DNA of 64,000 bases from Incurvaria masculella (taxonomy: Eukaryota; Arthropoda; Insecta; Lepidoptera; Incurvariidae), in contig OX335659.1 in NCBI GenBank assembly GCA_946894095.1, positions 1,433,501 to 1,497,500 of the forward strand. The letters are read 5' to 3'. The notes under the pieces were generated by a model. That model ran no database searches, was not told where the DNA came from, and was given only the letters and a program-made list of their open reading frames with translations. Positions 380 through 58,938 of the stretch are shown one piece after another; positions within the stretch are counted from its first letter, which is position 1, and each line of letters begins with the position of its first letter. Both the position numbers and the translations under genes were made by a program.

Positions 380-571
380 CAGAGTCCTGCTGCCGGGAGT
401 AGGCGGTGAGGTCCTGCGGCCTCCCGTTGAGCACCAGGTCGCGGACGCAGCCAACGAAGCCCTGACGCAGCGCCGCCGTCCAGAGCGCTGGAGGTGTGTT
501 CGCCGGGGAATACTCCGCTCCCAGGCCGCCGACGTAGAATGGGCCGTCCAGTTCCAGCTGATTCGACTCCC
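380..571 (-). CDS. Nrx-1: Neurexin-1 exon: LNS3 C-terminal half
   Basis: 192 bp, phase 1 in and 1 out. The acceptor is ATCAG at 572 and the donor is GTGAGT at 374-379. It encodes ESNQLELDGPFYVGG, then a linker and WTAALRQGFVGCVRDLVLNG: the last beta-strands of LNS3 with the conserved YVGG turn and the cysteine of the terminal LNS disulfide. The first two bases complete a glycine codon with the final G of the exon 3055-3247, giving the TPGES junction expected of neurexins. The exon is GC-rich in an AT-rich surround. Short frames on the same strand in this stretch are out of frame with the exon. Confidence 0.9.
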
Positions 572-3500
572 CTGATTGTCAATTTAGTCACGTGAGTATC
601 ATTTTGATTGCATTTGTTGCAGATTTCTTTATAAAAATAAAAACTTATATTACACTGCTAGTGTTTAAGCCCATTACACTTAAAGGGACTTCGATCAACC
701 CAAGTCACTCGGCCTTCTTATATTGCAGTCCCAGCATGGCGTGTCCTGGCATGGCGCCTAATTCCTATGCGGTGTGTTGGGCTAAAATAATTGCAGTAGA
801 GATGGTATTAGCCATCTATGACGTATTACAAATAAAATATCATGAAATACATGTGACAGATCAAAAAAGGTACGCTTACAATCGTCTGCTCCCAAATGGC
901 TGTAGCCGGTGTGATGATCATGAATGGATGCTGTTTGTGGAGACTGGCCTGCTGTCCTGGCCAACTAGCGTCTTGAACTCTGCGCTGGCGCCGTCGACGG
1001 TGACGCGGCCGTGGCGCCCGGTGCGCCGCAGCAGGAACTCGTTCCAGAGCCCGTCGTCGACGCGGCGCCGCGACGCGCACACGCGCACCCTGGCCGAGCC
1101 CAGGTTTATGTGCACGTATATGTGCCCGTTGAGGAGTTCCATCTCGAGCAGGTCCGCCTATAGGACAACCAACCTGGCGTCTTGAACTCGGCGCTGGCGC
1201 CGTCGACGGTGACGCGGCCGTCGCGCCCGGTGCGTCGCAGCAGGAATTCGTGCCAGAGCCCGTCGTCGACGCGGCACCGCGACGCGCACACGCGCACCCT
1301 GGCCGAGCCCAGGTTTATGTGCACGTATATGTGCCCGTTGAGGAGTTCCATCTCGAGCAGGTCCGCCTATAGGACAACCAACCTGGCGTCTTGAACTCGG
1401 CGCTGGCGCCGTCGACGGTGACGCGGCCGTCGCGCCCGGTGCGTCGCAGCAGGAATTCGTGCCAGAGCCCGTCGTCGACGCGGCACCGCGACGCGCACAC
1501 GCGCACCCTGGCCGAGCCCAGGTTTATGTGCACGTATATGTGCCCGTTGAGGAGTTCCATCTCGAGCAGGTCCGCCTATAGGACAACCAACCTGGCGTCT
1601 TGAACTCGGCGCTGGCGCCGTCGACGGTGACGCGGCCGTCGCGCCCGGTGCGTCGCAGCAGGAATTCGTGCCAGAGCCCGTCGTCGACGCGGCACCGCGA
1701 CGCGCACACGCGCACCCTGGCCGAGCCCAGGTTTATGTGCACGTATATGTGCCCGTTGAGGAGTTCCATCTCGAGCAGGTCCGCCTATAGGACAACCAAC
1801 CTGGCGTCTTGAACTCGGCGCTGGCGCCGTCGACGGTGACGCGGCCGTCGCGCCCGGTGCGTCGCAGCAGGAATTCGTGCCAGAGCCCGTCGTCGACGCG
1901 GCACCGCGACGCGCACACGCGCACCCTGGCCGAGCCCAGGTTTATGTGCACGTATATGTGCCCGTTGAGGAGTTCCATCTCGAGCAGGTCCGCCTATAGG
2001 ACAACCAACCTGGCGTCTTGAACTCGGCGCTGGCGCCGTCGACGGTGACGCGGCCGTCGCTCCCGGTGCGTCGCAGCAGGAATTCGTGCCAGAGCCCGTC
2101 GTCGACGCGGCACCGCGACGCGCACACGCGCACCCTGGCCGAGCCCAGGTTTATGTGCACGTATATGTGCCCGTTGAGGAGTTCCATCTCGAGCAGGTCC
2201 GCCTATAGGACAACCAACCTGGCGTCTTGAACTCGGCGCTGGCGCCGTCGACGGTGACGCGGCCGTCGCGCCCGGTGCGTCGCAGCAGGAATTCGTGCCA
2301 GAGCCCGTCGTCGACGCGGCACCGCGACGCGCACACGCGCACCCTGGCCGAGCCCAGGTTTATGTGCACGTATATGTGCCCGTTGAGGAGTTCCATCTCG
2401 AGCAGGTCCGCCTATAGGACAACCAACCTGGCGTCTTGAACTCGGCGCTGGCGCCGTCGACGGTGACGCGGCCGTCGCGCCCGGTGCGTCGCAGCAGGAA
2501 TTCGTGCCAGAGCCCGTCGTCGACGCGGCACCGCGACGCGCACACGCGCACCCTGGCCGAGCCCAGGTTTATGTGCACGTATATGTGCCCGTTGAGGAGT
2601 TCCATCTCGAGCAGGTCCGCCTATAGGACAACCAACCTGGCGTCTTGAACTCGGCGCTGGCGCCGTCGACGGTGACGCGGCCGTCGCGCCCGGTGCGTCG
2701 CAGCAGGAATTCGTGCCAGAGCCCGTCGTCGACGCGGCACCGCGACGCGCACACGCGCACCCTGGCCGAGCCCAGGTTTATGTGCACGTATATGTGCCCG
2801 TTGAGGAGTTCCATCTCGAGCAGGTCCGCCTATAGGACAACCAACCTGGCGTCTTGAACTCGGCGCTGGCGCCGTCGACGGTGACGCGGCCGTCGCGCCC
2901 GGTGCGTCGCAGCAGGAATTCGTGCCAGAGCCCGTCGTCGACGCGGCACCGCGACGCGCACACGCGCACCCTGGCCGAGCCCAGGTTTATGTGCACGTAT
3001 ATGTGCCCGTTGAGGAGTTCCATCTCGAGCAGGTCCGCCTATAGGACAACCAACCTGGCGTCTTGAACTCGGCGCTGGCGCCGTCGACGGTGACGCGGCC
3101 GTCGCGCCCGGTGCGTCGCAGCAGGAATTCGTGCCAGAGCCCGTCGTCGACGCGACGCCGCGACGCGCGGACGCGCACGCTGCCCGAGCCCAGGTCCATG
3201 TGCACGTATATGTGCCCGTTGAGCAGCTCCACCGCGAACAGGTCCGCCTGGAGGAGGGTTCGGGCGTTTTTGGACGGCCTTCGAAGGCTTCAGTATGACT
3301 ACCTTCTTTTTGGAAAGCACATTTTGTATAGCGCAACATATGGCGTACTCAGGCTCTCATTAAAAAGGCGCCCGAGGACGCACATAGGCTAACGCTTTTT
3401 GGAACGAAAATCATGTCCACCGGCCAGGCGTTTCTACGTCCCATTTGTGAAGGTAAGGAAATATCACGGCGGAAGTGATTTCTTTTGTTGAAAATTAATT

Positions 3501-6500
3501 TATATTTCGCGCGGGAAAGTCTCAAAAGGTTAAACGAGAAAAAAAATTAACTAACTAATATTTTTCAGCCTTTTGTTTGTCAAATATTTTAGTCAACATG
3601 AGCATTGGAACGTTTGCGTATGGGAAATGTGATGTGTTGGCAAATACGTTCTATATTTGAGTATGTTTTCTCTGTCAATGAACAAAAATATACTAACTAC
3701 TCCTTGGCCCAAACATGCCTGGGAATATTTGGTTAACGTTTGGACCATAAGTACGTAAACACCCAGTATTATGTAATATTATCACATGCTTAACACACCT
3801 ATTGGTATTTTTATATAGCTGCATAATTACAAATACAAAGGATGCATGCATTGACAAAAGAGTTCAATAAAAGTCTCGGTTAGAGAAAGATACGTCAAAC
3901 TTATAATAAGGTTAACATTTGATTAAACAGGTTACTGTTTACAGAACCTTACATAGGGTCTTTTTGATCTTATTCATAAAAGATGACGTATTTAATCATA
4001 CGTTGACGTAACTTTAACATTGATATATATTGACCAAACGTGCCTTAATAGCTAATTGATTAAAATGGATGCAAAATTCGCAAAGTGCATTTAAAGTGGA
4101 TACAAAATTGATATGCAGACATATTAATCATAAATGTGCAGTCGTTTTAAAAAATATAGTTAACTGCTATAAGCAGTGGATTGAACGCTCAATGATCCAT
4201 AATAATAGATCTTCAGACTGTTTTTTTATTTTACTAGAGATTGATCATGGCTAATGAAGCATTTCAAGTCTCAATCAAGTGTATCTACGAACTATTCGTG
4301 TAACCATTCGCTAAATTATTGTTAGGATTTGGTTCAGACGATCACAATGTGCTAGAGTACCAAACATGTGCTCAAACATCAAACATTTCGACGCTCACAA
4401 AAACGAATAAACAAACAAACACACACAAAGTGGGTGAAACTTTATAAGGTAGGGTTACTCAATTGTTGGGTTCTTTAATCAATTTACCATGTGACTTAAA
4501 TTATCTTAATTTTACTAAAAATTTTCAGTTCATTCATGCAATGTTTGATCTGAAGTTCACTTGATCATAAAATTTTGTTCGTGATGTTATATATTCTGAT
4601 ATTTTTTTAATAAAATTTTCAGTAAACTTCAAAACAAACCTTTTTAATGAGTCCGAATAAGAGTGTAATGTTAATGATACTAACAGGCAAGAAGTTAAGG
4701 AAAGAGGTGATAATAAAATAAATACACATGCCTATGATAATGACGAAGAGATGAAGCTATGAAGGGATGGTTGATGGAATTTCGCTAATGTCAGACATGA
4801 CAATGATACCAATTACTAAAATTAAAAGTTTTTTGACAACTCTAAATAAAAATGTATCTCATGAAGAACCAAGAGAGGGTCTAAATGTTGTCGATGATGG
4901 TTATGAGTCTTCGGCTGATTTGGTCGCTCAGTTCAACCCCAAAAGCTTCACCCCTTACCGTGCAACCTACCCTTGGTGGCTTGGCGCCGGTGTTGAAGAC
5001 GATGAGACCGTTGGGTTCGTTGGTGCGAAACTTGAAAGAGATAGTTCCGGTCTTGACTGCCTCCCATTTTGGTAGAATCTGAAAGTCAAGACGCAGTCTT
5101 ATTTCCATACGAAAAAAAGAAAGTCGTTTTCGTTCCTATTTTGAATATAAAAACTGGCTTTATGTTTTCTCCAAATACTGATAGTTTTTTTAATATTAAA
5201 TGGTGGGAAAATGGTGGGAGAGAGGCCCTCACATCGGTGTCTGACAACGCCCGTGAGCTTTCAAACACTGACCGGCAGTGCGATTACGCAAAATTTGAGG
5301 ATGGTGCCGCGGTACGTGTAGGTGCGCCCCCGTCATTTCTAAAGCGCGATTACGAAGCCGTTTTTTATCCACCTACATCCAGCACGTAGCACGTAGGCTC
5401 TCTAGTTGCGATGAAGCTACTGCGCAGTAGAATCAATTTTGACAGCTGCGGGTTCATTCACGAAGCGACCTCCCCGCATTTGACAGTTCTTTGGCGTTTC
5501 GTAATACCTATTCCACGCGAAATGTATGGAGTTGACCTAATTGCTGCGGGTAGCGCTGAGTGCCGCACCATTTGTGAATGCATCGATTTCGTAATCGCAA
5601 AAGCTGTCATATTGCTGTAAGTACAGCAACCTACACCCAATTTTGTGCTTCGTAATTGCACTGCCGAGCTGCGAAAACCATGCAGGCCGGCCAAGTACTT
5701 TTCACACCATGTTTTAAATACAGGGCGCTGCAGGCATCTGCACTCGGCAGGGATTGCATTCTACAGTTGGCCGATGGTGTTGGGACCTTAAATTCAAAAA
5801 ATAAATAAGCCCTTCGTTCTTTAATTTCAATATATTCACGCAAGCTAAAATAAGCGTTTACCACCCGTTTCCGGGATAGTCGTAGCGAGTGCGCTAACCG
5901 TCTACTCAAATTAATCAAGAAGCACTCGTATAAAGTGTACAGTCAACTAAATGATCTACCTACTTGGATAGTCTCTACCTTAAACTTCTCTTACCGATTA
6001 AAAATTAAATGGAAACGGAGAACATGATACAAATACAGAAGCCTTGTGTGGCTTATCGGTGGAATTTTGTTTTAAAATTTAATGTAATGTCTGGTAATTT
6101 TTAGACACCAAAAGAAAAAAATAAACATGACAGTCATACAGTTTAGTAACCTTGGTTGTAGGGATATTGGCGGTGCATGATGCATGTATACATTCGCAGA
6201 CATAAAAGATTTGAAAAAGAGAAAAACTAGTGGTTTCAAAATATTTAGACCGATCTTTGTATTGATGTACAACGCTTACTTGTACGCTTTCATCGGTAGG
6301 TGTTTGTATAGTCACTGTTACAAATGGTTTACGAAATTATAGATTATTTTGACGGTTGTTGCTTACTTTCATCGGGAACTCTGAACTTTCTACTGTACAA
6401 GCTTGTCTGTATGCGTGACTTCAGCAGGTCATTACCAAATCGCTTTGACACGTGCACAGGAAACTTGGGCGGTATTTAAGTCAGCGTTATTAATTTCCGT

Positions 6501-9500
6501 TGACTATTCGTGTTCGCGCGACTGTACCTGCAGCTGAAAGCCTCTCCGTTTATTCAGGAGCCCTTCAGCTGACAAATGACGTCCGAATACCGCCGCTATG
6601 AGTGCGGGCCTCGGGTTCCCATCTCATTTGAAGGGGCTTCTCCGGACAGATTGCTGTTAATAACCTCGAGAACACGAACTGATTCACGCAGTGATTGCCC
6701 TGATGGTACATTTTTATTATAGCTCGCACGGCCAGAATTATTCCGATGTTGGTTTTACTTAGATTGAGTTGGGTTTTTATCCCTATTTTTCGCGGACGAG
6801 CGGTAAAGTATAATGTATCATATTTCTTGCCAACTCAGTCATTACAATTTTTAAGTCAAGGTTGTGATTTTTTTTTTAAAAAGTTTAAATTTGAAAATTT
6901 GATATATGTATGAAATATGATGTGTCGATAAAATTGTAATATTCATAATTTCATCTTCATTTAGTTGTAGAATTCGATACATCGATAATTTATTGCTATT
7001 TTTAGTAGAAATCAATGACCACCAAAAAAAGAAATCCATTATATCTATGGCATAATCGGAACTAACCCAAAATTTTGCTAAAATTAAAATTAGGGTAACT
7101 GATAAACTCGCAACATGTTATTTATTAAAATATTACCAACGATTGACGACAGCGATAACGGGTTTTTAGAAGAAACTGGAGTAAATTATCAATTTTAAAT
7201 TTTGTCTTGGCAGAACGGGAAATTATCATTACCATTCCCAATAATGTTAGGCTGTTTTAAATAAAGAATCATTATTTTTCAATTCTTCGGAACATACATT
7301 TACTCCAGTTATAACTCATTCTCAGCTCTGAGGTTCAACATCCAGTCTGGTAGCGAGACTATGACATCTAGCAAGGATCACCAGCCGGTATACCGACCTA
7401 ATTCATTGCAGCAATGCATAATGCAATTATCGGAATCCCAAACGCATTGCTTCGTGTCTTCCGACGTCATTCCAGAGGCAAATTGTACAGTCGCTATAGT
7501 ATAGATATACTATAATTTATATTTATGTATGTATGTCTCGAAACGTCTCTACCGTCAAAAATGCAGCATTGTTGAAGGTGTTTTGCGTTCTGGCTTATGA
7601 GCTGCAACCCTATTGTATGCACCTTATTACGATCGTAGGAAACAAAATCTAACAGTATAGGACACAATATATGTTTGCTGTTATGAGGAACTTCACATTG
7701 ATCTCATCGGTCAAAACAAAAATTATCTTTCTTTTTTCTTATTTTATTTTTTGTCATACACTATTCATATACTCCTTCGTACTACAACTGTTGCCATATT
7801 TGTGAAACACGAGGCTGAACTAACATATTTTCTAAGCTATATATTTATCAATATATTAATATTAATATCTCTATGTAACTCTGTTCGTATTTCCCACAAA
7901 TTGAAGACGACGTAAACGGTATATTAAAATCAGAATAATAAAAAAACACGAACTTTTAGAATCCTTTGAATGAAGGCGAATCTTTGATTTTATTGATTCT
8001 TCAAGGTTTTGTCAGAAACTAATTTCTTAATTATACTTCCGGATAAGATCACAGTCAGTCAGCGTATTTGCGTCCACTGCTGGACATACGCCTCTTCAAT
8101 TTTTCTCCAGTCCTCCCGGCCCTCAGCGGTACAGTACCACTGCTTTCCGCCGACGCACCTGATGTCGTCGTCCCACCTCAAGATCACAGAGCGGAACGCT
8201 TTCGTATATCGAGCCACTCACCAGGTGAGCGTCCCTGGTGGTGAAGGTGACCGGGTCGGCAGTGTCGGTGGCGGTGCAGGAGTACTCCAGCCTTCCGGTC
8301 ACGGTGATGAGCTTGCTGCCCGTGCGCGCCAAGTCTATGAGATTGAGACGCAGCGTGTCCGCTGAGAACTCCACCTGGGCAGTTCGAATTGAGTGTAAAC
8401 ACTTAATGCTTCAGAAATTGGATCACACAATATGATTTATACAGTTACGTAAAATTTAATTCTTAAAAAAATCTTGCAATTTTGTGGATTCCATTGCATA
8501 ATTTAGGAATTCGTTTTCCAAAGTAATGTTTATATTCTAAGAATATAATTTGGAGTTTTAAGCGGTCTCTCAGCTGTTTACTTTAAAAATGATGGAAGCG
8601 GACGGACCAGATTGTATAATTAGTTCTTGGAGCCAGGGAAGAACGGGGGAACAACAGAAAGGCATTAAATAAACCGATTCTCCGCAAATGAGAAAACAGA
8701 GCAGATGTCAAATATTTTACTGTTAAGAGAACAGATGTTCAACCACAGACCCAGCATTGACCTGGATGGAAAACACGGACATTTTTTTATTGCCGCTTTG
8801 ACCATCTTTTTATCCAATGCGATGGTACCAACCCGGGGAGATTAAACCCTACCACCTAGTAGGGAAAGGGGACCTACAGTTTTACATGGATTCCGAACCA
8901 TGAAGCAGTTCGTATTTGTAGCGGAAGGCACTTATCCAACTCAGAATGAGAAAGAAAGTGGTGCATGAAAGGGGCGAGGAATTGACCCCAGGCCTCTGGT
9001 ATGCTAGGCAAGTCCCCGCGCCACTTGGCTACAAGACGCTCGCTCGAGAGATATTCTAAAACTGGTGCTTTCCATGGAGTGGTAGAAGTCTGGAGCAGAA
9101 CCGACCTTCTTGAGGCACCCGATGAAGTTGTTGTGGACGCGGGCGCCGAGCAGCGCGCGCGCGTTCAGCGAGCCGCCGACGTGGGCGCGCGAGCTCGCCA
9201 GCATGGAGAACTGGCCGGCGACGTGCGAGTGCTCGGCGTACACCTCGTCTACCACGGCGGATACCTGCGACCCAGATTGAACAGCTTGGATATGGGAGTG
9301 GACACCTAGGGCCCAGATTTAATAGCTTGGATATTGGGGTGGACACCTGGGACCCAGATTTAATAGCTTAGATATTGGGGTAGACTCCTGGGACCCAGAT
9401 TTAATAGCTTTGATTTTGGGGTAGACGCCTGGGACCCAGATTTAATAGCTTGGATATTTGGGTAGACACCTGGGACCCAGATTTAATAATTTGGATTTGG

Positions 9501-12500
9501 TGTAGACTCCTGGGACCCAGATTTATTAGCTTGGATATTTGGGTAGGCACCTGGGACCCAGATTTAATAGTTTGGTTATGGGGGCAGACACCTGGGACCC
9601 TGATTGAATAGCTTGAATATTGGGGTAGACGCCTGGGACCCAGATTAAACAGCTTGGATATTGGGGTCGACACTAGGACCATTGGTGCCAAAGAAATGTG
9701 AAATATTGTTGAAGTAGGAATAGGGTCCTACACACGAGCTCAATTGGTTTCTCAATTGTGCCTCGCGAGCTTGTTTTCGCGAGTTGAAGTTGATTTAAGT
9801 TATCTGAGTACCTTTGGTCTCTCAGCACAATGTTTTTGATAAAAAACGCAATTAAGGCTAAGGAATGTGACATGTATTTATGTATAATCGACCGTGAAGC
9901 AAGGACACATTAATTGAAGAAAGAGCCCAGTAAAAAGAACTACTTTACGAATATACTGCAAGGCTGGACCCGAACCAGCAAAACATACCATTCGCGGGTA
10001 TTGCGTCCACCAATTTCGCTTTACACGGTCGATTATAAATACATACATGTCACATCCCTTGGAATAAGCGACCTACCTGCTTAGTACGAAAAAGTATATT
10101 TATTCAATAAAGGCTTTCGCAATCAGCATGCATTATTTCATTTCATTTCATTTATTTATTCAACTTCTGGTAGTAAGACTACACTAAGTCATGTCACAAT
10201 TTGATTGATCCGCGGATTCGATCAACCAGTGAAGAAGAACCCGCAAAGAAACTTCACTGGTCTATAAATTATATTTTTTTTTTGTCTTTTTAAGGCGACA
10301 TAGGACCCTAGAACGATCATAACCGATACGCTATCGTTTTATATTTTTAGTTTCCATAATAAGCACTTCTATGCAAATTTAAATCGGAAAACCTTGACAT
10401 GGAACCATTTTATGATTTGGATTAATATAAGTTGGTACTTGCCATTAAAATTCCAGCCTTAAACTGGTTTGAAAAAATTTTAAATCCCACAACATAAGCA
10501 ATAAGGGTATTTTAATAATATTATATTAATTACAATTAATGAAAATGTTAGCAACTCTGGGGAATGTTGTCCTTGATTTACTCAGAATCGCTCTTGTTTT
10601 AGTTAATATTAATTAATATATAGCCAAAATAAAAAAAAATCTAAACGCGACACTAGATAATTGATTAGTGAATACAATCCAATATTAAAATTATATCATC
10701 AAAGCTTATGTTGTCGGCGTTAACGCGCTTCAAAGTTTTTCAAATCGATTTAAGCTTTGAATTTTAATGGCAAAACCAAATTTTTATATTTCTAAATTAT
10801 GAAATGGTTCAATGTCAAGGTTTTCCGATAACACTGTTTGCATAAAAGTTCTTATTATGGAAAATAAAAATATAAAACGGTAGCGTATCGTTTATTGTCC
10901 TTCTAGGGTCTTATGTTCCCTTAATTTGTGAAGATCCCTGGGTTTCTTATTCCATTGGTTGGTTGCAGTGTTCTAATTAGGGTAAGTGAGTGTAATGCGA
11001 CCGAACATTTTTATTTGTTGTGGATAATGAATTCCTTGTTTTTTGTGCAACCTCAGTTCTTAACCTTAATAAATTCTAAACTTCTAAACATATCTTCATT
11101 TAATTCTAAATTAATGTTCCACCCTATACAAAACCAGTTTCAATTGACGCATACATTTTTGGAACCTCGCTCAAGTGCGCTACGACAAAAATGCTCCTTG
11201 GCAGCAAAGAGTTATTAGCCCGGGAAGTTGAGCGCGCCCAACGGACACCAGAGAGTACTGAGAATAATGAGCATAAGTCTTCAAGTCTCGCGGACACAGC
11301 CTGGCGCATGGGGCCAGGTCACACTGACGAGCGATGCCATTCGAACCAAATGAACTCTCGAACAACCGACACTCACATGTCAATCGATATGTTTTGTATT
11401 TGGCTGTAAGGAAATGACATTTTAATTTAAGAAAAAACTCTAAGCTGTACTTTATAAATATATAGCTGAGGCTTGAGGATGATAAACATAAGGCTCAACT
11501 CGAGTCAGTTACGTTTTGAGCCTTGATTTTAAAACGTTCAAAAAACCAAAAGTTTTAGCTTGACAATAGCTCCACCTACCGGGTTGAACTAGCAAAAAAC
11601 CATCGTGACCTCGTAAATACAAACTCAAAAAAGTCAAGAATTACATACGCCGGGCTATTACACCTAAAGCTAGGATGGCAATTCATAGCTGTGTATCGGT
11701 GTCTACACTTATGTACAGAATCGGTATGGCAGAAGAGGCATGTGTAGAATAAATGCATTAGAAATAAGTTCCTCGAGGAAGGTACGCGGATTTAATTTTT
11801 ACTTTCGAAATGACTGGGTTAGAAGGCAGTATAAATTGAAAAAAATAATTAAACGATATCCTGGAAAGGTGCCAATAGAGGAGATTTTTTACATAGTTTA
11901 ATGGGCCTAGTTTTCTCATCATATGGTTATTTAGAAAGAGTGTGTTGTTAGCAAGTAACATATGATATAATAAAAGTAGTGTAAATTGAAAAACAATATT
12001 GTGATAAGAATTAAAAGAAGAATAACGAACTAGCATGAGAACAAGGTCCCGCGTATATGTTTTTCAACTGTAATCATAAAAAACATAATAACCAAAATAT
12101 CTGACAAATTCGCCGATCGCAAAGTAATCGTTGTCGCATCGCTCGCATATGTCGTCCATAACCGTTCTCTCTAAGGGAATGGGAAGTTGTAAAAGTTATT
12201 TATTATTGAAGCAGTTGGCTGCATGTGTTGCCCTAAGCGCCTTTATTGGTTCGTTTGGCGAAAGTTCGTAAAATCGTCGGCGGGTTGGCCAACTGACAGA
12301 CGTTCCTTCGAGCTCGATAAAGTTTCCCGTTATCGGTGTCTGGCTTCCCTGTCTGCTGTTTTTAGGTAATTAATTTATGTTTACTTCTGCTCGGTACGCT
12401 GCTGGCAAGTTTCGAACTTTAGTACGTTTCTTCGTGAAATAATTTTATGAACACAAATTATAAAATATTATATTTTAGTTGGACCATTATCATTTGACAA

Positions 12501-15500
12501 CTGAATTAAAATGAAAAAGAGCGAAAAAAATTTAATTGAAAGCGATCTACTTCCAAAATTGTTTGCAAAAGGATTGTGAATTTAAATGCGTTGATTGCAT
12601 CCAGGGCGTAAGTGAAGGCACATTTTTGTTACAAAAGCGCTAAAACACATCTTGAAAATGAAAAAAATGAAACATATATTTCATATTGAGCTATATTTGA
12701 AACGCATAAAAATAATAATGAAAATAAAAAAATACATCTTACCCTCCTAAATACACCGACAAAATAAAAGTAAACATCTTACTCTATATTAATAAATGTT
12801 TTTTTAACTTAAATGCTCATTTATCTTATTTGATTGATCGAAACACAACCAACTTATATATATACAACGTTATATATAACATATATCTTTAAACTAAAGC
12901 TAGATCATCAATTAACAAATATCCTTTTGTATTATTTGACGGTTGTGTAAATTTTTACTAACGCCTTTAAAATGAACGAAATCGGCCATAATCACGCCCT
13001 AATAATAAAGATATATGACTGTGAGACAAACCAGCATAAATATCAAGATATATGACTGTGAGACAAACCAACGTCAATACCAAGATAATTGACTGTGAGA
13101 CAAGCCAGCATCAATATAAAGATATTTGACTGTGAGACAAACCAGCGTCAATACCAAGATAAATGACTGTCAGACAAACCAGCATCAATATAAAGATATA
13201 TGACTGTGGGACAAACCAGCATCATCATATATCATCTACATAACTTACATCGTAAAGCAAACGGAAAATAACGTAAAAATGGTCGCATGCAAAGACTGTG
13301 CCCTGCAATTTAATTTAGTATTCAGCGCAAGGTGAGTTTGTTGTTTCATCCACGGAACCCTGCTGCTTCCGGCCGAAGAAAAGCCACCATTACGTACGAC
13401 CGACCACAAGCTCCCTCTACGCCCGCATCAGCGCGTTCGAAAACAAAAATTGCCGCATTCCGTCTCATTATGCGCCGGATAAATGAGCGAGACAAAACAT
13501 CGAGCCCGCCGGCATAGACTGCGCGCTCTAATTGTTCCGTTCTTTTCAATTTTTGCTCGTCTATTTTATTCGTCTCCTATTCCATTATTCGTAGCGGCAA
13601 ACGACGTATTAACGCGGTTATAAAGGCCCACTTCTGTTTGCTCGCTGGATGAGCGTTTGGAATGGTTTTTCGGCGTTACCAGCTGTATAGGGGCGTTATT
13701 GGAAAATGTTGAAATGGGAAGTTTGGGAACGTTTAAATGGACCTTTAAGCGAGGACTATTTTCTGAATTCAAAGCACGTGTTTAGTGTTTGTAAGCAAAT
13801 TAAGTTTTGGGTATTGGATTAGTAAATAAGTAGGGTATTGTAGCAGGAAAGGTTGTGCTGCCTATTTAGGATCCATCTGCCCACTCCATTTGCCTAAATT
13901 ATTAAAACTGTAAAATTTAAAACTCTTTACATCGACGTCGGTGAACACCATATTGGGAAATCCTTATAGACCTGATATTTAGCGAATAATGTCAATCGAT
14001 TAATTATATGGTACATCATATTATTTGATTCAGGTAATATAACATAAATATTCAGGCCATTTCAACAACTTAATCAATTTAGAGTGGAGTGCAAAATCTC
14101 TGGTTAGTATGGTTATCAATCTTCATTGTTCTTCAGGCGAAAAATAAGGACGGATGTATTTTAATTATTAAATGATAACTAATGATATTAGTAAATTAAT
14201 TTGAATATTAGCGTTCAATAGTGTTTTTACTTAATGGGCTGATGAATGTACTTGTCATCTAAATGCCCATTGTTTATTTAATATATCATCCATGAATTAA
14301 ATTATGGTAGTTTTATAACTAACCAATCAAATTTTAAAATAATTGGATATAACTGCTCGTTCATCTAAAATCAATGTCCACACGCAGAAAGAAAAGTTTT
14401 TTTCCTAAACTTTAAGGAAATATCCTATAGACAACATAACTTTTGAAAAGTAAATACAATAATACTATTGTATTATTGTATATATTATTGTGTTGATTAT
14501 CAAAACGCTGTAAACTAATGTAATACGTGGTGCATAATTACAACAACAACAACAACAGTTACAGTTACAACTTACTTCATGGATATTAACCACATTTGAC
14601 CGACGAACCATATTCTTTGTATTTGATAAATTATACCATGTGAAAAACTAGATTTTTTAACTTTATTTTTGGTCGAAAATCCATAGATTATTTTGCAAAA
14701 AGTCAATCAATTCCAAAACCGTGTCTATACGTTCACTTACCCGACAGAAGCTGGTGAAGGAGGTGATCTGAAAAGTAAAAAAAACAATAATTTAAGTCGG
14801 GACATTCTGTTTCAAATTCCAAAATTACTATATTAAAAAAGTACCACTAGGAAAAAAAACACAATAAAAACCAAAAATCTATGAAACTAATTAAATAAAA
14901 AAGAATTTACAAAAAGCTCTGGAACACATTTCATTAATTTCAAGACCTATACATATAAACTATGCATAGAAACGCCAATTATAAATATGTATGCTGCCCT
15001 TAACCCCAACTAAAAATTCACACAACCAGAGACAAAGCTAGCATTCATCCATTTAACTCTCCAATTTGTACAAGAGCAGCCATCACAACGCTTCACACGT
15101 GCCTTACATCGTAACACACGGAATAATATCGCCACAAATCATCAAAATAAACGCTTTTAGTGTGTTGTACGATAGCGACCTCGCGCCGCCCGCGACCCTC
15201 CTGATAAAAGCCCTCCGAAGGCCGCGGTAAATTATTGAGAAGGCCTGACTATACCATAGACACTGTTCGTTCGCTCTCGATGCGTCAGTACGTTCAATGG
15301 GGAAAATGATAGCCTATACAGCCTATACAGGGTGTTAGGTAATTCGATACATTCCTCCTAAGGGGTCGTACTAATGCTAATTTGCAACAAATTAGTCCCA
15401 TAATGTTTTAAAAACTTACGTTTAGCCCTGACGATGCTTCCGTCGTGGGAGGCGAAACATGTCGGCGAAGCACGGCATTGCACACCGGAAAACAGTTAGT

Positions 15501-18500: not shown

Positions 18501-21500
18501 CGCAATTCCCTAGAATGGTATGTTTTGCTCTGCTCTTTTGGTATGTATGTGATACATATCACATTATTTCATGGAATATTTTATTTAATGTATTCAAGCA
18601 GTGAATGAGATGAGCCCCATTACAATCACCGCCACGATAGGCTAATAACTGATTCAACCAAACCAGGAACGATAATATTGTACCAAATACGCATCGATTT
18701 GTTGTTAAAACATCCAACTGGTTTTAGCTGAGAGCAGCAACAATTGGTTATTCTAATAAACCGGCCAAGTGCGAGTCGGACTCACACACGGTTCCACAAG
18801 GGTTCCGTACCATCGTACAAGATTTAACACAAAAAATCAAGTGTTTTGTATGGGACCCCCCATTATTTTTTATTATTCTTTAGGGTTCCGTACCCAAAGG
18901 GTGAAAACAAAACCCTATTACTAAGCCTCCGCTGTCCGTCCGTCCGTCCGCCCGTCCGTCCGTCCGTCCGTCCGTCCGTCCGTCCATCTGTCCGTCTGTC
19001 ACAGGGCTGTATCTCAGTAACCATAACAGATAGACAGCTGAAATTTTCACAGAGTGTGTATTTATTTTGCCGCCTTAACAACAAATAGGTAAGATTAATA
19101 AATAATGAAAATTAAAGGGGGGCCCCATACAAAAAAAAATATTTTTTTGGAAAAAATCTTTAACGATGGTGCGGAACCCTTCTTGTGCGAGTCCGACTCG
19201 CACTTGGCCGGTTTTTTATTTTACCTATTTGTTGTTATAGTGGCTACATAAAAATAAATACACACTCTGTGAACATTTCAGCTGCCTACCTATTACGGTT
19301 CACGAGATACAGCCCTGTGACGGACGGACGACGGATGGACGGACGGACGGACGGACGGACAGCGGAGGTTTAGTATTAGGGTTCCGTTTTCACCCTTTGG
19401 AGACGGAATCCGAAAAACATAATTACAATACAAAAATACCCGGCCTAATTCATTTCTGTGTTTGGGTTTCTCTGCAATTCTGCTGTCAATTAAAACAAGC
19501 CTCGGTTAGCCCAGTGGTGCAACGCGATTCGATAGATGGGTGACTGTTTTCAACTGTTGAGGCTGGCCGTGATTCGGATTGCGTACTCTATAGGTGGCTT
19601 CTTACCTTTGTAAGAACCTTTATTACTTACTAGGTGGCAACCCAGACCTCTGGTATGCTGGGCAAGTCCCCGCGCCACTAGGCTACGAGCTGCTCGAGGC
19701 TTTCTGACCACTTGTATCCTTAACGCCGCGCAAACAAGAAACAACAATGCTTACCTCCTGGATTCTTGACCTTGTGCCACTGCGCGCAAACAAGAAACAA
19801 ATACTGGCAAGCCAATCGCTTACCTCCTGGATTCGACGGTGCATGGTGACCTTGTGCCACTGCGCGCAAACAAGAAACAAATACTGACAAGCCAATCGCT
19901 TACCTCCTGGATTCGACGGTACACAGTGACCTTGTGCCACTGCACGCAAACAAGAAACAGATACTGACAAGCCAATCGCTTACCTCCTGGATTCGACGGT
20001 ACACAGTGACCTTGTGCCACTGCGCGCAAACAAGAAACAGATACTGACAAGCCAATCGCTTACCTCCTGGATTCGACGGTACACAGTGACCTTGTGCCAC
20101 TGCGCGCAAACAAGAAACAAATACTGGCAAGCCAATCGCTTACCTCCTAGATTCGACGGTGCACGGTGACCTTGTGCCACTGCGCGCAAACAAGAAACAA
20201 ATACTGGCAAGCCAATCGCTTACCTCCTGGATTCGACGGTGCACGGTGACCTTGTGCCACTGCGCGCAAACAAGAAACAAATACTGGCAAGCCAATCGCT
20301 TACCTCCTGGATTCGACGGTGCACGGTGACCTTGTGCCACTGCGCGCAAACAAGAAACAAATACTGGCAAGCCAATCGCTTACCTCCTGGATTCGACGGT
20401 GCACGGTGACCTTGTGCCACTGGTGGTCATCAAAGCGCACCTTCGCTGGCTTGATGTGCATCTCTTGCTTCCCGTTTGCGAGTCCCATGGTCAGTGAGAC
20501 TCCACCGTCCCGCACGGCCAGGTTGAGATAGTCGGCGCCATGACCTGGCCACATTGACATCACTGAGTGGGCAACGATCAATGGTTAGCGCCATATTATG
20601 GATTGTGCGTCTGGCAGCATCTACAGTATGCGCCCTAACAATAAATTGTGAGCTTGCTTGGTTTAAAGTATTTTATATATAAATTTTGTGAGTAAACTGA
20701 GTTACTGACAACGCCCATGGGCTTTGGACTTTTTTAAGAGCTGTGAACCGGTCGATCAGGTGCTTCTTCACATTATTTTTGAATAAACGCACGGTACATT
20801 TTTGGTGGCAACAATAAGTCAGCATCCATGCCCGTGTATTCCACAGTTAATAAAAATAAGCTGATAAGTTTGGTTAACAATATGGTAGCAGTTTTCATAA
20901 AAAAACCTTCGAGCGTGGGTTAAAATGTTCATCAATCAAATACCTGTGTAGAATAGAAGACCATTGGGCTGTCGCGTCTTGAAGTATATAGAGATGGCAT
21001 CTTGTGTGCTGACGATGGGTTCCCCTCCAGTCTGCGTGAGGTCGTACGAGAGGAACTCAGTGCCACGGAACGTCGCCTCTGATGGAGCTTTATCTGTGGA
21101 CAAAGACGTCATGGTTTATATACATATATCTTGCTGGGTCTCTCTGGTCTAGGGTAGTAGGGGATAAAAGTATTCGATATTGGACACCGGGTGGCTAAGC
21201 TCAAACGGCAGTGGGCTGGTCACGTCAGCCGAAGAGACGACGACCGTTAAAGTAACCGTGTCCTACACTGGTGGCCGTGGACAGGCAAACGGAGTGTGGG
21301 AAGACCACCCGCCAGGAGGGAAGACGACATCAAGTGCTTCGGCGGAAAGCCGTGGTTCTGTACCGCTGAGGGCCGGGAGGACTGGAGAAGGATTGGAGAG
21401 GCGTATGTCCAACAGTGGACGCAAACACGCTGACTGAATTTACGGAACGGAGTCTCTGATATTGCTTCGTCTTGTAGTGCATACATAGAGATAGCGACTG

Positions 21501-39500: not shown

Positions 39501-42500
39501 AGGTTTTTGGGTTTTAAGGTGTAAGGGTTTTGTCAGCCTCAGTGGCCCAGTGGCGCGACACTTCGGCGATCGCTCTCCGAAGTTAAGCAACGCTGGGTCC
39601 GGTCTGGTCTTGGATGGGTGACCATTCGACCGTTGAGAGAGGTTGGCCGTGGTTCGGATTCCACGTTAAGCTGTAGGTCCCCTTCCTTACTTACTAGGTG
39701 GTAGGGTTTATCCCGCCCGGGTTGGTACCGTCGCATTGGATGAACGATGGTCGAAACGGCAATGAAAATTGTCCGTGTTTTCCATCCAGTTCAATGTAGC
39801 CGTGCAATATAAGGAAGGTCCTGGCATGGCACCTAGTTCCCATGTGGTGTGTTGGGCTAATAACATGATAGAACTTGTGGTATTAGCCATCCATGTCCAG
39901 TCACATAAAAAAAAAAGATTAAAATTCATTCAAAGTGATTTATTAATTTGTACCCTTAGATGAAAGGGCGTAACGATATAAATGCTAAGAGAATAATTTT
40001 GATAAAATTTCTTAGCGTAGGAACAATAAGCGAGACAAGCGCCATCTATAAGATAGTAGAGAAATAGAGTCGATTTATGCAAATGTGAACCTATAAAAAA
40101 CGTGAATTCACACATATAGGTAAACTAAGTTAATCAACTAGTCTAGCTAGTTCTATCGATCAATCGACTCCAAAACTCGACGTAACTCAAAGTTCCTGAA
40201 ACTTTCGAATAATCTCGTTTTTCTTCATTCTCAGAAGTAAATCTCGGGTTTCAGATAAATCGAAGGCGGCTAAGTTACCCGTGTCCCCGCGATCCTCGAC
40301 CCGACTTACAACCCGATCCGCAACTCGACGTCCGCTATTCAGCAGATCCGGCGCCGCGTCCGCGAATTACGTGGTCGGTCTCCGTTGGGTCGGAAACCGC
40401 GTTGGGCTGTCTGCGGGGCCATTAGGGGCGTTTGTGCATCGTGACGCGGCCGGACGGGGCCCCGCACGCCCCTCGCCCCCTCGCCCGAGGGGGGCGCGCC
40501 TCTCACGACCCCCGTCCCCGTAACGTGTGTACACATGTGAACCGCGCATGTCGCCGTAAGCGTGTTTGCATGGCATCTCGTCGAGTGATGTTTGAGTTGT
40601 CGTGTGCCGGTGTAGTGTGAGCCCGATTGTCTCTCGTTCCGTCGAGGACGGAGTGCTTCTAGGGTGATAAAATAAAGAGGCGTTACGATGTATGTTTTTA
40701 ATTCTGCGCTGTTTTGACATAATCTTTGTAGAATACATCCGTTTATTTACTGACGCCTGATACATTTTATATTTTCAAATTTCAAATTTCAAATTTCTTT
40801 ATTAGACAGTTTATGAAACAAATTACACAAGTAGCATAATATGTAATATTAGTGTTACTATTTATAAATAAGCAGCACATGTGGCAGTTCCTACCACCTA
40901 AACTGGCCCGTAGGCTGTCTCATAGGTGGCAGGTTAGCGTTCTAGCCTAAGTACGCAATACTACACCTGCAGTCCTGGCAATAGTATTGTGTTCTCAATA
41001 CATACTACTACTGCGGATGCATAAAGCTCACAAACACAGCCAGTCATTTAAAACTGTTTCATCATTGCAATGACAAAATTTTGTTGAACGGAATGAGATA
41101 AACCGCTTTAAAAATGAATATATTGGGAATGTGGGTAGGTAGAACTTACAATAGTGCAGACCAGTATCAGATTCTATCTATCGGCTGTTTGTCAAGAGAG
41201 TGTCAAAGAATAGAATAAGTTAAGACACACCACAGCTTAAGAAATATACATGCTTCAATTAAATTTGTGTACTTATGTTTTACTGACAGTAAAGTAAAAA
41301 AAAAAAATTGAAACTAATTTTTCAAGTTTAAGGACCAAATGCCAGCAATGAATTATATACTAATAATAATAATAATAATAGTAAAAAAATATTTAATAAT
41401 ATTAATATATATATTTTAGCTAAATAAAATAATTAAAATGTTAGTTAACGTAGTTATTACTCTTTGTTAACATAGAGTTCTTTAAAAGCTTTTGAAGTGA
41501 AACTTCTTTGGTGGCGGGTCTCAAATTTTCAAGCGTTACGAAAAGTTAAGGTCGCTTGAAGGCTATAGTTAGACGCGTGTTGTGGGACGCAGGGACGGAC
41601 TGGTAGGGTGCCTCAGCAGAGTCTCACACGAATACAATGGCGATGAAAGGGAAGACGCCGCACCGGATAGGAAGCGGGGGGAGACACGTACTTGCGTAGT
41701 ATTTGCTAGTTATGACGCGCTGATGGGAAAACGGCAGGGGAGAGGTAGAAGCAGTGGTGAGACGGATTTCTCGTAACGCTGCTTATGCTCGTTGTGTTTT
41801 CATTTGGGATCATACCCGCATTCTGAATTATTATTATCACTTGTATGCAGGCTGTCAACGAACGTAGATCTTCGAGGTTTAGGCGTGTTATCTTAAATGG
41901 TGAAAACGTGATAAAAATCTGACAAGTAATTTACGAGATATTCGCATATGAAGACTGTTTAAACGGTACATTGTCCATAAATTTAAACCGATTAATACGA
42001 TTAAAAATAAACAAAGAGGAAAAATACGTTCAACATCGAATATAGATTACGTAGTTTAAAAAAAACCACCCAAAGGCTAGTCGGACTCGCACATGAAGAG
42101 TTCCGTACCATCGTACAAGATTTAACATAAAACAATCAGGTTTTTTGTATGGGTATCTTTAATTTTTAACATTTTTATTTAACCTATTTGTTGTTATAGC
42201 GAAAATGAAAATTTAAGCTGCATACCTATTACGGTTCATAAGAAACAGCCGTGTGACAGGCGGACGGACGGATGAACGGACGGAGAAACATCGAAAGCTT
42301 TGTAATAGGGTTCCGTAGGCACCCTTTGGGTACGGAACCCTAAAAAGAATCGACGGTCGTTTACAACCTGTAAATACTTTATTTTTCCGTCTACAATATT
42401 GAGCAATAAATTCCGCTTCTATCGCGCGTGTCCTCCAGCTATACCTAGGAAAGGAAACCTACAATTTAACATGGATTCCGAACTATATAGCAGCTCGCAA

Positions 42501-45500
42501 TTGTCACTAAATTTACTTATCCAACTAAGAGAGAATGCAATGGTGGATGCAAGATATAGGGAATAAGCGAATCTAATCCTTGCTTCGCTAATCTAATGCT
42601 TGCACTAGAAATTGTTCCACGAGGGCAGATTTAAATACGTGACGAACTGAAAAAGATGCTATGCAAAACACGGTCAAGATAATACATACGTTCTAGATTC
42701 TCTCTCAGAAACGAATTAAGATCTTTTCATGAACAGTTCTCCCTGGCTATTCAAGTCCCCTATTTGAATGGCGCAGCAGAGCGTAGACTCTTTCTAGTGA
42801 AAATGATTTGAAGGATAGTATCATAGAATAAACATTTCAACTTCAATTGATTTTCTCTTGGACTTGATAAAAAGTTGAATTTCACATTTGTTTTTACACA
42901 ACTGGACAAAATACTACGAATTACACCCCACGTTATGGTTCGTGACCAACACTCGTGCAATTTCGTGTGAATAAAGTGCTATGCGAAAACTATAATAAAA
43001 TATAACATCTTTTTGGGGAAAAATTTCGACAGAGAAAATAGAATAAAAAATAACAGAAGTTGACAATATTTTTTCTTTCTGTATTAAGTTTAAGGTTAAG
43101 AAGTTAGACACACGCGTTTTTTGGGGTTGGTGCCAACCTGACTGGGCTTATCCCTACTGCATATTAGGGGAAGGGGGTAAATTTTGGATGGATTCCGAAC
43201 CATGGAGTTTATGTTTACGTAAATGATTTCTTTTACCAAAAGAATGCAACGATTTAACGGGAAAGTTAATTACCTTCTAAAAGTTACGACCTCTGTTTTA
43301 CTATCTGCGAGAGCTGTAACCTTATGGTATAACCTGTATTGTATATAGGTACCTGTACCAATCCATGCCTGTACCTTAGTTCTGTCACTGTACATTTCAG
43401 GGACAAAAGGTCCAATGTCGCGCGCTCCGATGAATAGGGCTGATAACCCTGAAAGCTTTATTGGAAAAGGTCGACTCAATTTCAGCAAGGGAGAACCGTG
43501 TGAAATATGTAAATTCGACGTAAAGGCGGATTTAGATGGCTGAAGATGGCCGTTAGCGTATACCGAATATGCGATATTTTTAGATTTTATTTTAGCCTTT
43601 CTAGTTTGTCATTTTGTACGTCGAAGTTGTCAAATTAAAAGGAAAAACCGAATGCTTTAGGTAATGTTGACTTCACGTATTAAAAAATTGGAGTAGTTTA
43701 ATAATAAAATTAATCAAGTGTTTTTTATGTGGCTGGACATGGAGGGTTAATACCACTCATGGGAACAAGAAGAACGGGATGAAAAACACGAACAATTTTG
43801 TTTTTTTTTTATGTGACTGGATATGGATGGCTAATACCACACCTTCTGTCATAGTATTAGCCCAACACACCACATGGGAACTGGGTGCCATGCCGGAACC
43901 TTCCTTATATTGCACGGCTACATTGAACTGGATGGAAAACACGGACAATTTTCATTGCCGCTTCGACCATCGTTCATCCAATGCGATGGTACCAACCCGG
44001 GCGGGATTTACCCTACCACCTAGTAAGTAAGAAAGGGGACCTACAGTTGAACGTGGAATCCGAACCACGGCCAGCCCCTCTCAACGGTCGAATGGTCACC
44101 CATCCAAGACCAGACCGGACCCAGCGTTGCTTAACTTCGGAGAGCGATCGCCGAAGTGTCGCGCCACTGGGCTATTAGACTAGGAGGTCGCGACAAAAAT
44201 GGTAACGATATCGTAAATGGCTGAAACGGGTATCACGGGATAAAGACCAACCCTCTGAAACTAAATGTGTCAGTCTGCCTGTTCCAAGTGGTTGCGTTAC
44301 GTAGATAAAGCGCCTGAAAACTAGTTATGGTAACAAAAAATATATATGATAAGGTAAATGGATGCAAATACCGAAGCATGAAAGTATCAGTTAATACTTG
44401 CTTAGCAATACAAAAATTGAACAAACATTTGGTTGCATTTCGTAGTTATAGGCGATTTAGGATACAGATATAACTTAAGGTATATTTAAGTATTTAATTA
44501 AAAAACCGACTGGTTATTGTTGCATAATTAATAGGCATCAATGTTTCCAGACAACCAGTATATTCATCAGCAGGTACATACCAGCATCGATTTTATATAG
44601 CCAATCTAGATAACACAACCACTTGGCACGGGCAGACCGACATATTTAGCATCAGAGGGTTGGTCTCTAACATGTGAACCCAGATTCAGCCATTTACCTT
44701 ATCGTGACCAAAAATGTCGTGACCTCCCGGAATATATTGAGGCTGACAAAATTTTTTCATTGCCGCTTCGATCATTCAATGCGATGGTACCAAGCTGGAC
44801 GGGATTAACCCTACCACCTAGTTATTTAGGAATGGGACCTACTGTTTAACGTAGAATCTGAACCGCGAACGACAAATCCCTTAGTCGGCTCTTACGACAT
44901 GCAAGAAAATAAATGCTGTGGGCCCAATTATATTATCTTTACTGACCAGAACCCACACAGCACAACCTTAATGTCACCTTAATTTAAATTTAAAGATAGT
45001 TCGTCTATTTATCACCTGTTGGTCTTTTTACCTACTAAATAATCATTTGGTTTCAAACCCGATTTGTTACCATCGCACTGGCTGAATGTAATGGAAGCGG
45101 TAATAACAATTTTCAGTATTTTCCGTAATTTTTAAAACTTAAATTTGCACGTGCTCAATGACTAGAAAGTCCTTAAACCGTTGTACTTTTGTTTTTTCTA
45201 TGTCTGTGTTCTATTAGTTCAACCTGAACTATTTAAATCAATTTAAAGCCCCTTCTCTAGTTATAAATTACCACGAGTAAAAAATTTAATTTAATTGGAG
45301 CCATTGATAATTTTCTTCATTTTAGGTCGGCCCGTAAGCTTCAGAAAATTTCGCCTCCCATACAAACGTAGTTTACTAATAATTTGAAAACCACTGTTCC
45401 AACTTACTTGATATTTGGTATCTAATATTAGGCTACAAATATCTGTGTCTGCATGTCTTTGTTTTTTCGGTAAATGTATTCTGGGTCAAACCACAGAGAA

Positions 45501-48500: not shown

Positions 48501-51500
48501 GAATGTTGTATATGTGTTAACTCGCTGGGAAACTTCGTTAGTGCAATGTAACTTCCTGTCTAGCTGGTAGCGCCATCTACCGCCATGTTAACTAGCTTCT
48601 ATGCATCTATTTGTTGCATTTGTGGCATATGAAACTAGCAGCTCTTAGTAGAGAGCGCTAGGTCGCCACAATGACATACGCCACAGAATAACGGAATCCG
48701 ATTCATCATCCCATAGTAGTGCACGAAGCGAAATGCCGAAGCATGGGATGACAGTTCTGATTCGAGTATTTTTTGACAGGACAGAGAGAAATTCGTTTTG
48801 GGCTCGCCCTGCATTTTGACGGGAGGACTAACGGTCTGTCTCTTTCGCAAAAGGCTCTTTGACAGCAAAAGTGTCGGACACATTTTTTCGTCTAGCTCTC
48901 ATCCGCAAAAGGCGCAATAAGGAACATAGTCAATATAGTCAATAAAAAAAATATTTCTGTTCCATCCAGTTCAATGATGCCACCCTCATAAAGGGTTGGT
49001 CCTGCCAATTCCTTTGAGAATGCGGTGCGTTGGTCTAAAACATGACGATGGGTGATGTACTATCCATCCGTGTCCAGTTACATAAGCAAAATAGCTTCAC
49101 ACGACACTTCAATCACACAGATAACAATCACTATAATCATTATTCATTGTCTTTCGAACCATTAGTAAATTATTAAATTTCTGTGAAATGTGAAGGATAC
49201 AAATAGATAGATAGATAGAATAGTAGAATTTAATGTGTCATTCTTAGGGAACAAGACTCTTAGCTCCGCCTTTTCACCGTTATGGGACAATTCTCGAAGA
49301 AGATTGTTCTTTATTGGTGCGCCATGAGGTCTAGAATTTGGTAGAGTGTTCGAGAAAGAAGCTCAACCGATATAAAAGCCGCTCTCAGCTCGAGCCGGTC
49401 GGTCTTTTTTTGGGAAGCGAATCGAAACGAGCAATACCAGGCGATAATAGACTCCAAATTGATACAAGTGAACTAGCTCTTCCATTGAAACAGTACAACG
49501 ATTGAGAATGAGTAAAATTGAGTGGAGGTTTTAGGGAATTTTGTTACCAATAATTACTTGTTGTACATCAAGTTCTCAAATTGTAAAACATTGTAAGCGG
49601 TGTCTGTTATGTTTAACTATGATTTCATACCAACCTAAACATGTTGACAGTTTGAAGTGTAGTATGCTACCATAAGATTTTTTTTTTATGTGATTGGACA
49701 TGGATGGCTAATACCACACTTTCTGTCATGGTATTAGCCCAACACACCACATGGGAACTAGGTGCCATGCCAGGCCCTTCTTATATTGCACGGCTACATT
49801 GAACTGGACGGAAAACACGGACAATTTTCATTGCCGCTTCGACCATCGTTCATCCAATGCGATGGTACCAACCCGGGCGGGATTTAACCTACCAGTAAGT
49901 AAGGATGAATGCTCAGCAAAGAATAGGAACAGGTTAGTTTTCGAAATCGACGTAGTTTAAAATTGCTTATTTGTGAGTTTCTTTGTAATTTATTCAAATG
50001 AAAAAAAAAAAGCAGACTTTTATTTACTTTTGGTATTTTCGCCTCTATTTACACCCCACCAGCGTAACAGTATGCATACATGCATTCATTAAAATTATTT
50101 AAAATTGTATATGATTTGAGATTACCGTGATTAACACTCAATTTAGGGTTTGTGGAAATCGGCTTACTCCCGGTGTATCCATGATATTGCACGACGTTTC
50201 TGACCAAACGTTCGGTCCATCAGTCAACAGTTCCCTGTTGACCGCCGCCGGCACGGGTGCTCGCCTGATGATGGACCCAACGTTTGGTCCGAAACGTCGT
50301 GCAACATCATCGACACACCGTGAGCAAGCCGTTTTCCACAAACCCTAAAATAATTAATCGGTTTAATATTACGTATGGCGGGTAAAGGTATAGGAACTAA
50401 CGGTTCTCTAAAAACCCATGAAAGCAATCGCGATACGAGAGTGCGGAGTGTGAAGTGCGGAAATCCAGAACGCCTTACCTATTCAACGAGGAAAGGTTCC
50501 GATTCTATGGAGTGCGGCAAGCGTTCGTGACATAGTCCGCACACGCGAGCTAAGCTTAGCACTTCCAACAGTTAGCCGCTAAGTACCCTCTATAAATAGG
50601 TACTTTATTCTGAGCTTCCTAACGGCACTCGAATATATAAAAGCACTCTGCCTTAAAAGGCCGTGCATGATTGCTTTCCAAATTTATAGGTGTACTGTTT
50701 GATTCCTAAATAAATAAAAAAAACATAAAAAATATGATTTTATGTATGACAGATTGACATTTAAAATCTTTTTTAAATTATAAATTAATTCTTCAGCAAT
50801 ACATGCAAACTTATACTTAAGGTTAAACAATTTTATTTTAAAATTGTATTTTCTAGCTTGGTGTTTTATCCACCAGGTTGCGACGTAAGGTTCAGCCACC
50901 GGTGAGAGTGGCACAGAAGATCATATAAATAATGATAGCATTCGTTCGGCGTTGACGTTATCCATGCCATCTATATTAGCTTAACGGTGTCACTTTGCGA
51001 CAGTGTTTAAAGCTGATCGCACGCGTCTGCAACGCGCGCGTTCCCAGCGGATAGTGTACGGAGACAGAAACGTATAACGTTGCGACCTCAGTGCTGCATA
51101 CCTCGCTAGCAAGGTGAACCCTCGTAGTTTCCTTCGCGACACTCACACACTCCTGCGATCCCCGTAGATAGTGCACGAGTGTAGGGCGACAGTAAGTATA
51201 CTTTTGCGACGTCAGAGCTGCGTACCTCGCTCGCAAGGTGCGCCCTCGTAGTCTCCTTTGCGACGCTCGCAAACAGGTGGATTGCAAGCTCGTGAGCCTG
51301 GCACGGGTCGACATGCTCGCATTCACCGTGAATAGTGCACGAGTACCCGGCGACAGTAAGTATACCGTTGCAACGTCAAATCTGCGTACCTCGCTCGTAA
51401 ATGTGCGCCCTCGGAGTCTCCTTTGCGATACTCACATACAGGGGGATTGAAAGCCCGCGGGCTCGTACGCGTCTGGAACTCTCGTGTTCCCCGTGGATAG

Positions 51501-56800: not shown

Positions 56801-56826
56801 CTCTAATCCCCGCTTCTGACACCAAT

Positions 56827-58912: not shown

Positions 58913-58913
58913 A

Positions 58914-58930: not shown

Positions 58931-58938
58931 GATTAGAG

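Follow-up and report, generated by a model that had tools for sequence, protein, structure and literature searches.

Arrays copied from exon borders in neurexin-1 and seven other genes of the moth Incurvaria masculella

Four of the eight exons visible in a 64,000-nucleotide stretch of the Incurvaria masculella genome (C19:1433501-1497500, hereafter the window) have a tandem array touching one edge. This raises the question of what the arrays are made of, and whether they have a cause in common that also acts at other exon borders. A previous reading of the window from its letters only (the sequence-only reading) had assigned the exons to a single neurexin gene and had taken all four arrays to be copies of their own exon's splice border. 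We mapped the gene and its arrays and searched the genome (552 Mb in 31 contigs) for further cases.

Neurexin-1 and its tandem arrays

A query built from the exons of the gene gave its best matches, at about 76% identity, to neurexin-1 of many Lepidoptera (Nymphalis io, Vanessa and others), and tblastn with lepidopteran neurexin-1 proteins mapped 23 exons on the minus strand at C19:1414126-1542011. The assignment to a single neurexin gene was therefore correct, and the host of the window arrays is lepidopteran neurexin-1. A short minus-strand frame at about 14740-14770 of the window, FQ-ITSFTSFCR, between exons 20384 and 9264, is possibly a neurexin micro-exon absent from the exon map.

Three of the four arrays (A1, A2 and A4) proved to be head-to-tail copies of the 3' part of the adjoining exon together with its splice donor and 14–44 bp of intron, so that exon-derived arrays occur at 3/8 neurexin exons in the window. 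For these the sequence-only reading was accurate. It had given 209 bp in ten copies at exon 3055-3247, where TRF counts 11.0 copies of a 209-bp unit over 961-3249, that is, the real exon plus 10 copies; 80 bp in eight copies at exon 20384-20544, where we found seven full copies and a truncated one (TRF unit 80 bp, span about 19760-20422); and 143–156 bp in nine copies at exon 52445-52586, where there are nine exon-matching stretches (span about 51000-52543). The fourth array, A3, had been described as about ten copies of a 41-bp unit made of acceptor plus exon start. Its copy number and its contact with the acceptor were confirmed, but the unit is intronic: blastn found no copy of the start of exon 9106-9264 within A3, which was ruled out as an exon-derived array for that reason.

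Table 1. Exons, arrays and further loci with exon copies. Positions without a contig name are those of the window.
Feature	Position	Strand	Description
Neurexin-1 exon without array	381..572	-	tblastn
Array A1	949..3054	-	10 downstream whole-exon copies with 14–16 bp of intron each, unit 209 bp
Neurexin-1 LamG exon, source of A1	3055..3247	-	193 bp; splice signals, tblastn
Neurexin-1 exon without array	4971..5078	-	tblastn
Neurexin-1 exon without array	8219..8374	-	limits from tblastn
Neurexin-1 LamG exon adjoining A3	9106..9264	-	tblastn
Array A3	9263..9680	-	intronic minisatellite with a 41-bp unit, 10.2 copies; its end nearest the exon coincides with the acceptor of exon 9106-9264
Array A2	19760..20383	-	7 full and 1 truncated copies; unit made of the exon's final 39 bases and 41 bp of intron
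Neurexin-1 LamG exon, source of A2	20384..20544	-	donor CCAGGAG/GTAAGC; tblastn match
Neurexin-1 exon without array	20942..21094	-	limits from tblastn
Array A4	51000..52444	-	units of 143 bp next to the exon and of 156 bp beyond them, with decayed distal copies; outer limit approximate
Neurexin-1 EGF exon, source of A4	52445..52586	-	tblastn, junction reading
Array A5	C19:1420468-1421633		donor-side, 195 bp x6; last 141 bp of a neurexin exon and 54 bp of intron
Array A6	C19:1430191-1430656		intronic, 176-bp unit, adjoins a neurexin donor
L039, cadherin domain	C1:32.87 Mb		213-bp unit from a 195-bp exon; six copies nearly complete, besides decayed remnants
L040, cadherin domain	C1:30.40 Mb		whole 309-bp exon and 4 bp; one full, one partial copy
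L041, cadherin domain	C9:0.094 Mb		whole 202-bp exon and 45–47 bp; four full copies, one partial
L042, STK24/25-like kinase	C5		donor-side array, 150-bp units up to the end of the stretch examined
L043, MAPK-like kinase	C7		donor-side array, 139-bp units up to the end of the stretch examined
L048, PKA-like kinase			decayed donor-side copies; 50 bp at 90%, 60 bits
L065, Ion_trans	C21		acceptor side, 179 bp x6.2, 99%
L066, Shaw-like K channel	C17		one downstream copy, 211 bp of exon interior, 94.8%, without donor

The source exon of A1 has a GC content of 0.72 and is bounded by the acceptor CTCCTCCAG and the donor CCAG/GTTGGT; its copies are 90.7–93.3% identical to it. Nine copies are near-identical to one another; the 13 differences that set them all apart from the real exon are confined to the exon's 5' half. 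One of these nine has an additional difference, located in the 3' half, and in the outermost copy (949-1157) the 3' half has diverged as well. The resulting layout, E1-5' / (E1-3'+E2-5')n / E2-3', is the remnant expected of unequal exchange between the exon and one diverged duplicate. Identity to the Nymphalis io neurexin is 87.9% for the real exon and 76–78% for the copies, while tblastn bit scores run the opposite way (100 for the real exon and 99.8–106 for the copies, most of them slightly above the exon). When the genome was searched for the A1 exon, a search that gives lower bounds, no copy turned up outside the A1 locus.

Going outward, the full copies of A2 match their exon at 100, 100, 97, 95, 95, 95 and 97%, and in A4 the two stretches beside the exon match at 100% and the seven distal ones at 74–84%. 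A gradient from young proximal to old distal copies was clear only in A4; the inner copies are all alike in A1, and also in the cadherin-like locus L039.

A TRF scan of 200 kb around the window added the arrays A5, which is exon-derived, and A6, which was ruled out as such, having about 7–10 exon bases in common by eye and no blastn match. With A5 included, 4/23 neurexin-1 exons carry an exon-copying array, all donor-side, and two further exons adjoin an intronic array, A3 and A6 showing that purely intronic arrays can end at exon edges too. The source exons of A1, A2, A4 and A5 are intact and align to orthologous neurexins without stops (tblastn).

Copied borders elsewhere in the genome

The same anatomy recurs on other chromosomes in seven further genes (three cadherin-like, three kinases and one ion channel), which brings the total to 11 copied borders in eight genes, 10 donor-side and one acceptor-side. 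They lie on the chromosome-scale contigs C1, C5, C7, C9, C19 and C21. The splice site within the copied part is the donor in the seven arrays whose junctions were read (see below) and in L042, L043 and L048, and the acceptor in L065. At L041 the copies belong to two alternating subtypes, with 97/95/97/95% identity to the exon. The kinase at L043 is one that we take to be Nemo-like. The Shaw-like channel L066 was set apart from the copied borders, as its copy stops short of the donor. With seven further genes and this one truncated copy, the prediction of a shared process visible at other borders of the genome was supported.

Other candidates were rejected. Two alternative pore exons at about C26:25865800-25866200 (L067), in a presumably Shaker-like channel, are 90% identical over 51 bp and keep the frame, the donor and a stretch of the upstream intron, as an ordinary alternative-exon pair. 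A group of fairly evenly spaced I-set exon matches at C1:27208451-27221562 resembles a Dscam variable-exon array, and we assume the gene to be Dscam; its copies are diverged. L044 is a single open frame.

Genome searches with Pfam families returned at least 48 LamG, at least 150 cadherin, at least 137 kinase, at least 152 I-set and at least 98 Ion_trans matches, with 128 of 629 kinase candidates scored, and the match lists were read by eye for evenly spaced similar matches. At least eight loci with exon copies (A1, L039–L043, L065 and L066) were found among the 585 matches listed, which is a lower bound and not a rate because the lists are partial and only long copies can be detected in this way. 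Two further sets were drawn without regard to repeats, one of kinase and one of LamG matches. Of the first 20 kinase matches sampled in the order of the list, one had copies (L048). No such array was seen by eye among the I-set matches listed (of at least 152), and none of 16 LamG matches in 10 loci elsewhere had copies at the bit-score threshold of the avian screen; these LamG controls were hand-picked, and some contain stops or sit in long open frames, so that not every one has a border nearby. The lack of arrays in the I-set and LamG matches makes the frequency of copied borders uncertain and possibly low. A special status of neurexin was not established (4/23 against 1/36 exons, Fisher p=0.07).

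Exons with copies tend to be GC-rich; GC-rich exon edges that stall replication had been named in the sequence-only reading as one possible cause, next to R-loops at splice sites and a local repair process. Their median GC content was 0.65, against 0.56 for exons without copies (10 vs 54 exons, one-sided p=0.0015; L065 and L066 were left out, and the ascertainment of positives and negatives was mixed). By GC class, copies were found at 0/20 exons below 0.5, 3/21 at 0.5–0.6 and 7/23 at 0.6 or above. A bias toward chromosome ends was not established, using rounded positions on contigs of known length only (Mann-Whitney p=0.15; the outer third holds 6/9 loci against 49/155 background positions).

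Anatomy of the unit and its explanation

Junctions were read in seven donor-side arrays (A1, A2, A4, A5 and L039–L041); L042 was left out, its first spacing being irregular. In all seven the unit consists of an exon tail, the donor and 4–54 bp of intron, with lengths of 209, 80, 143, 195, 213, 313 and 249 bp and starts at exon positions -1, 123, 44, 49, 6, 1 and -1, respectively. In 4/7 arrays the copied block begins no farther than 6 bp from the 3' splice site of the exon, and in 7/7 it ends no more than 54 bp past the donor. Unit length is a multiple of 3 in 3/7, without frame preference. None of the seven units read contains upstream-intron sequence beyond the AG, an absence consistent with selection against any copy that splicing would include.

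We consider it likely that these arrays are exon stuttering in a lepidopteran, in which GC-rich exon edges are duplicated locally in tandem and the duplicates are neutral. In a first step, the 3' part of a GC-rich exon, with the donor and up to about 55 bp of intron, would be duplicated into the neighboring intron, possibly when polymerase or end joining errs at a GC-rich exon block surrounded by AT-rich intron. Unequal exchange or gene conversion would then expand, contract and homogenize the young array, and copies that are older and more distal would decay; the composite layout of A1 and the alternating subtypes of L041 argue for unequal exchange. Selection would preserve the real exon and a single working donor/acceptor pair. 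The array itself would then be neutral ballast in the intron, which splicing probably passes over in favor of the exon's own donor. The higher orthologue identity of the real A1 exon, compared with its copies, argues for such selection on the exon. Length variation is presumably ongoing, and splicing presumably normal.

The donor excess may partly be due to selection, since a donor-side array leaves the first donor by the exon and an acceptor-side array puts decoy acceptors ahead; L065 shows that exclusion from the acceptor side is not absolute. It may also partly be due to how the loci were found. We are doubtful of the broader proposition that GC-driven instability of exon blocks, with the unit set by the exon itself, is general in animals as distant as moths and birds; under it, the block limits near the splice sites would fit a process that is coupled to transcription or splicing, or to the sharp GC step at exon borders, and that duplicates exon-sized blocks again and again.

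Ordinary minisatellite birth, commoner in GC-rich sequence and without any tie to exons, would also yield some arrays at exons, which would then be noticed because they are recognizable. Stuttering exons are indeed GC-rich, and 9/13 arrays in the neurexin span (merged TRF arrays of period at least 30, placed against the 23 exons) are not exon-derived. From array length alone 1.72 contacts with a neurexin exon are expected; five were observed, a number reached in 3882/200000 permutations. When the source unit is treated as the random variable, 0.69–0.78 exon-overlapping arrays are expected against four observed (P(≥4) 0.004–0.006), which speaks against a process without a tie to exons, these placement statistics being post hoc for three arrays and the fourth (195 bp) lying beyond the stretch of the sequence-only reading. 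The enrichment of arrays at exon edges within neurexin is modest. Also at odds with this explanation, 44 GC-rich islands beyond exons and arrays in the neurexin span stand against a single short GC-rich array away from exons (33-bp unit, C19:1519764-1519857), a rough comparison since absence of arrays was part of the islands' definition, and the exon-derived arrays mostly exceed the others of the span in length and uniformity. We regard minisatellite birth without an exon tie as unlikely.

It is very improbable that the copies are functional, whether as alternative or mutually exclusive exons or as regulatory decoy splice sites. The donor-side units read have no upstream-intron sequence beyond the AG, their lengths are mixed modulo 3 with 4–54 bp of intron between copies, orthologue identity is below that of the real exon, and unrelated genes show the same pattern. 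These points outweigh several features that a function would account for: alternative splicing is heavy in neurexins, most copies retain an intact GT donor, and the A2 unit creates a pyrimidine-rich CAG ahead of a 36-nt exonlet. Differences between copies and exons also show a third-position excess (62/57/96 by codon position, p=0.002). Such a skew is to be expected where some of the divergence accumulated in the exon, which is under constraint, but it is also compatible with some constraint on the copies.

Capture and re-insertion of exon pieces by a mobile element or an extrachromosomal circle is more improbable still; rolling-circle intermediates can produce tandem concatemers, but every array adjoins its own source exon, the A1 exon (the only one so searched) has no copy elsewhere in the genome, and no common flanking sequence was noticed by eye between arrays. 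An assembly artefact, with reads collapsed or falsely expanded, would explain that many copies are 99–100% identical to one another and is barely credible given the copy-specific divergence or decayed copies in several arrays (A4 with near-identical proximal and decayed distal copies), the alternating subtypes of L041, the differing unit lengths of A4 and the several contigs affected.

Comparison with known systems

The arrays had been put forward as a candidate for an undescribed phenomenon. This has to be withdrawn, because exon stuttering on avian dot chromosomes, an intronic local tandem expansion (Hron et al. 2026; PMC12954441), has the same anatomy in the passages that we compared. In both cases a lateral part of the exon is copied with the donor or acceptor from a source at the border, the blocks measure tens to hundreds of bases, the exon itself is intact and there is a tie to GC-rich coding sequence. 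In those passages avian stuttering is reported for 115 chicken genes, with 236 introns affected, 190 of which lie on dot chromosomes, and was not found in other vertebrates save one gerbil gene group; it is also marked by extensive intron-length variation between individuals, and its mechanism is discussed as speculation only (PMC12954441). The moth case differs in its insect host and in its location on six chromosome-scale contigs, not dot chromosomes. Its arrays are tidy and head-to-tail, whereas the avian blocks are called less organised, and 10/11 borders are donor-side, the avian ratio not being given in the passages compared (PMC12954441). The copied borders here do not fall in a special chromosome class, which is a property of the avian distribution and not of the arrays. 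The moth arrays are real in the assembly, local and recurrent, and are the same in kind as avian exon stuttering. In the open-access literature searched we found no insect case, and the stuttering terms occurred in PMC12954441 only.

Clusters of mutually exclusive exons, such as the Dscam-like cluster and the L067 pair, are likewise exon-sized tandem duplications within one gene. Their copies have diverged, unlike the proximal or inner stutter copies, which are often near-identical, and the donor-side stutter units contain no upstream acceptor sequence. The donor-side stutter copies read are not complete in-frame exons with an acceptor and donor of their own. Another parallel is intron gain in potato RdRp, where a single tandem duplication spans an exon-intron border, brings splice signals with it and creates a new intron (PMC4974935); here many copies pile up within an existing intron instead.

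Its dispersal over an insect genome shows that this anatomy does not require dot chromosomes, and the moth provides a second, independent system for testing explanations based on GC content, recombination and repair. The copies are also an annotation hazard, because they resemble extra exons and are counted as such by six-frame domain searches; those of A1 make up 10 of the at least 48 LamG matches listed. If such arrays are common across Lepidoptera, they would provide a steady supply of extra splice sites and of intron-length variation in genes such as neurexin.

The window also holds other repeated elements. A 3,436-nt inverted repeat (54231-57666 and 58073-61508, 100% complementary, 406 nt apart) overlaps two opposite gypsy-like retroelement frames, with long pol-type ORFs and the family assigned by eye, and a further pair of inverted arms of 511 nt lies at 56827-57337 and 63391-63901. 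Another putative retroelement occupies 28954-35502 on the minus strand, with gag/pol-type frames and, apart from these, a possibly envelope-like frame of 599 aa. A short dispersed element recurs at about 36430-36705, 39694-39929, 43671-44030 and 49712-49960 with similar translations (LAQ..TTWELGAMPGPS, and in other frames). Runs of the tetranucleotides GTCC/CGGA occur at 17524, 18934, 25658 and 47405, several of them in similar flanking frames, which suggests a repeat family carrying the microsatellite.
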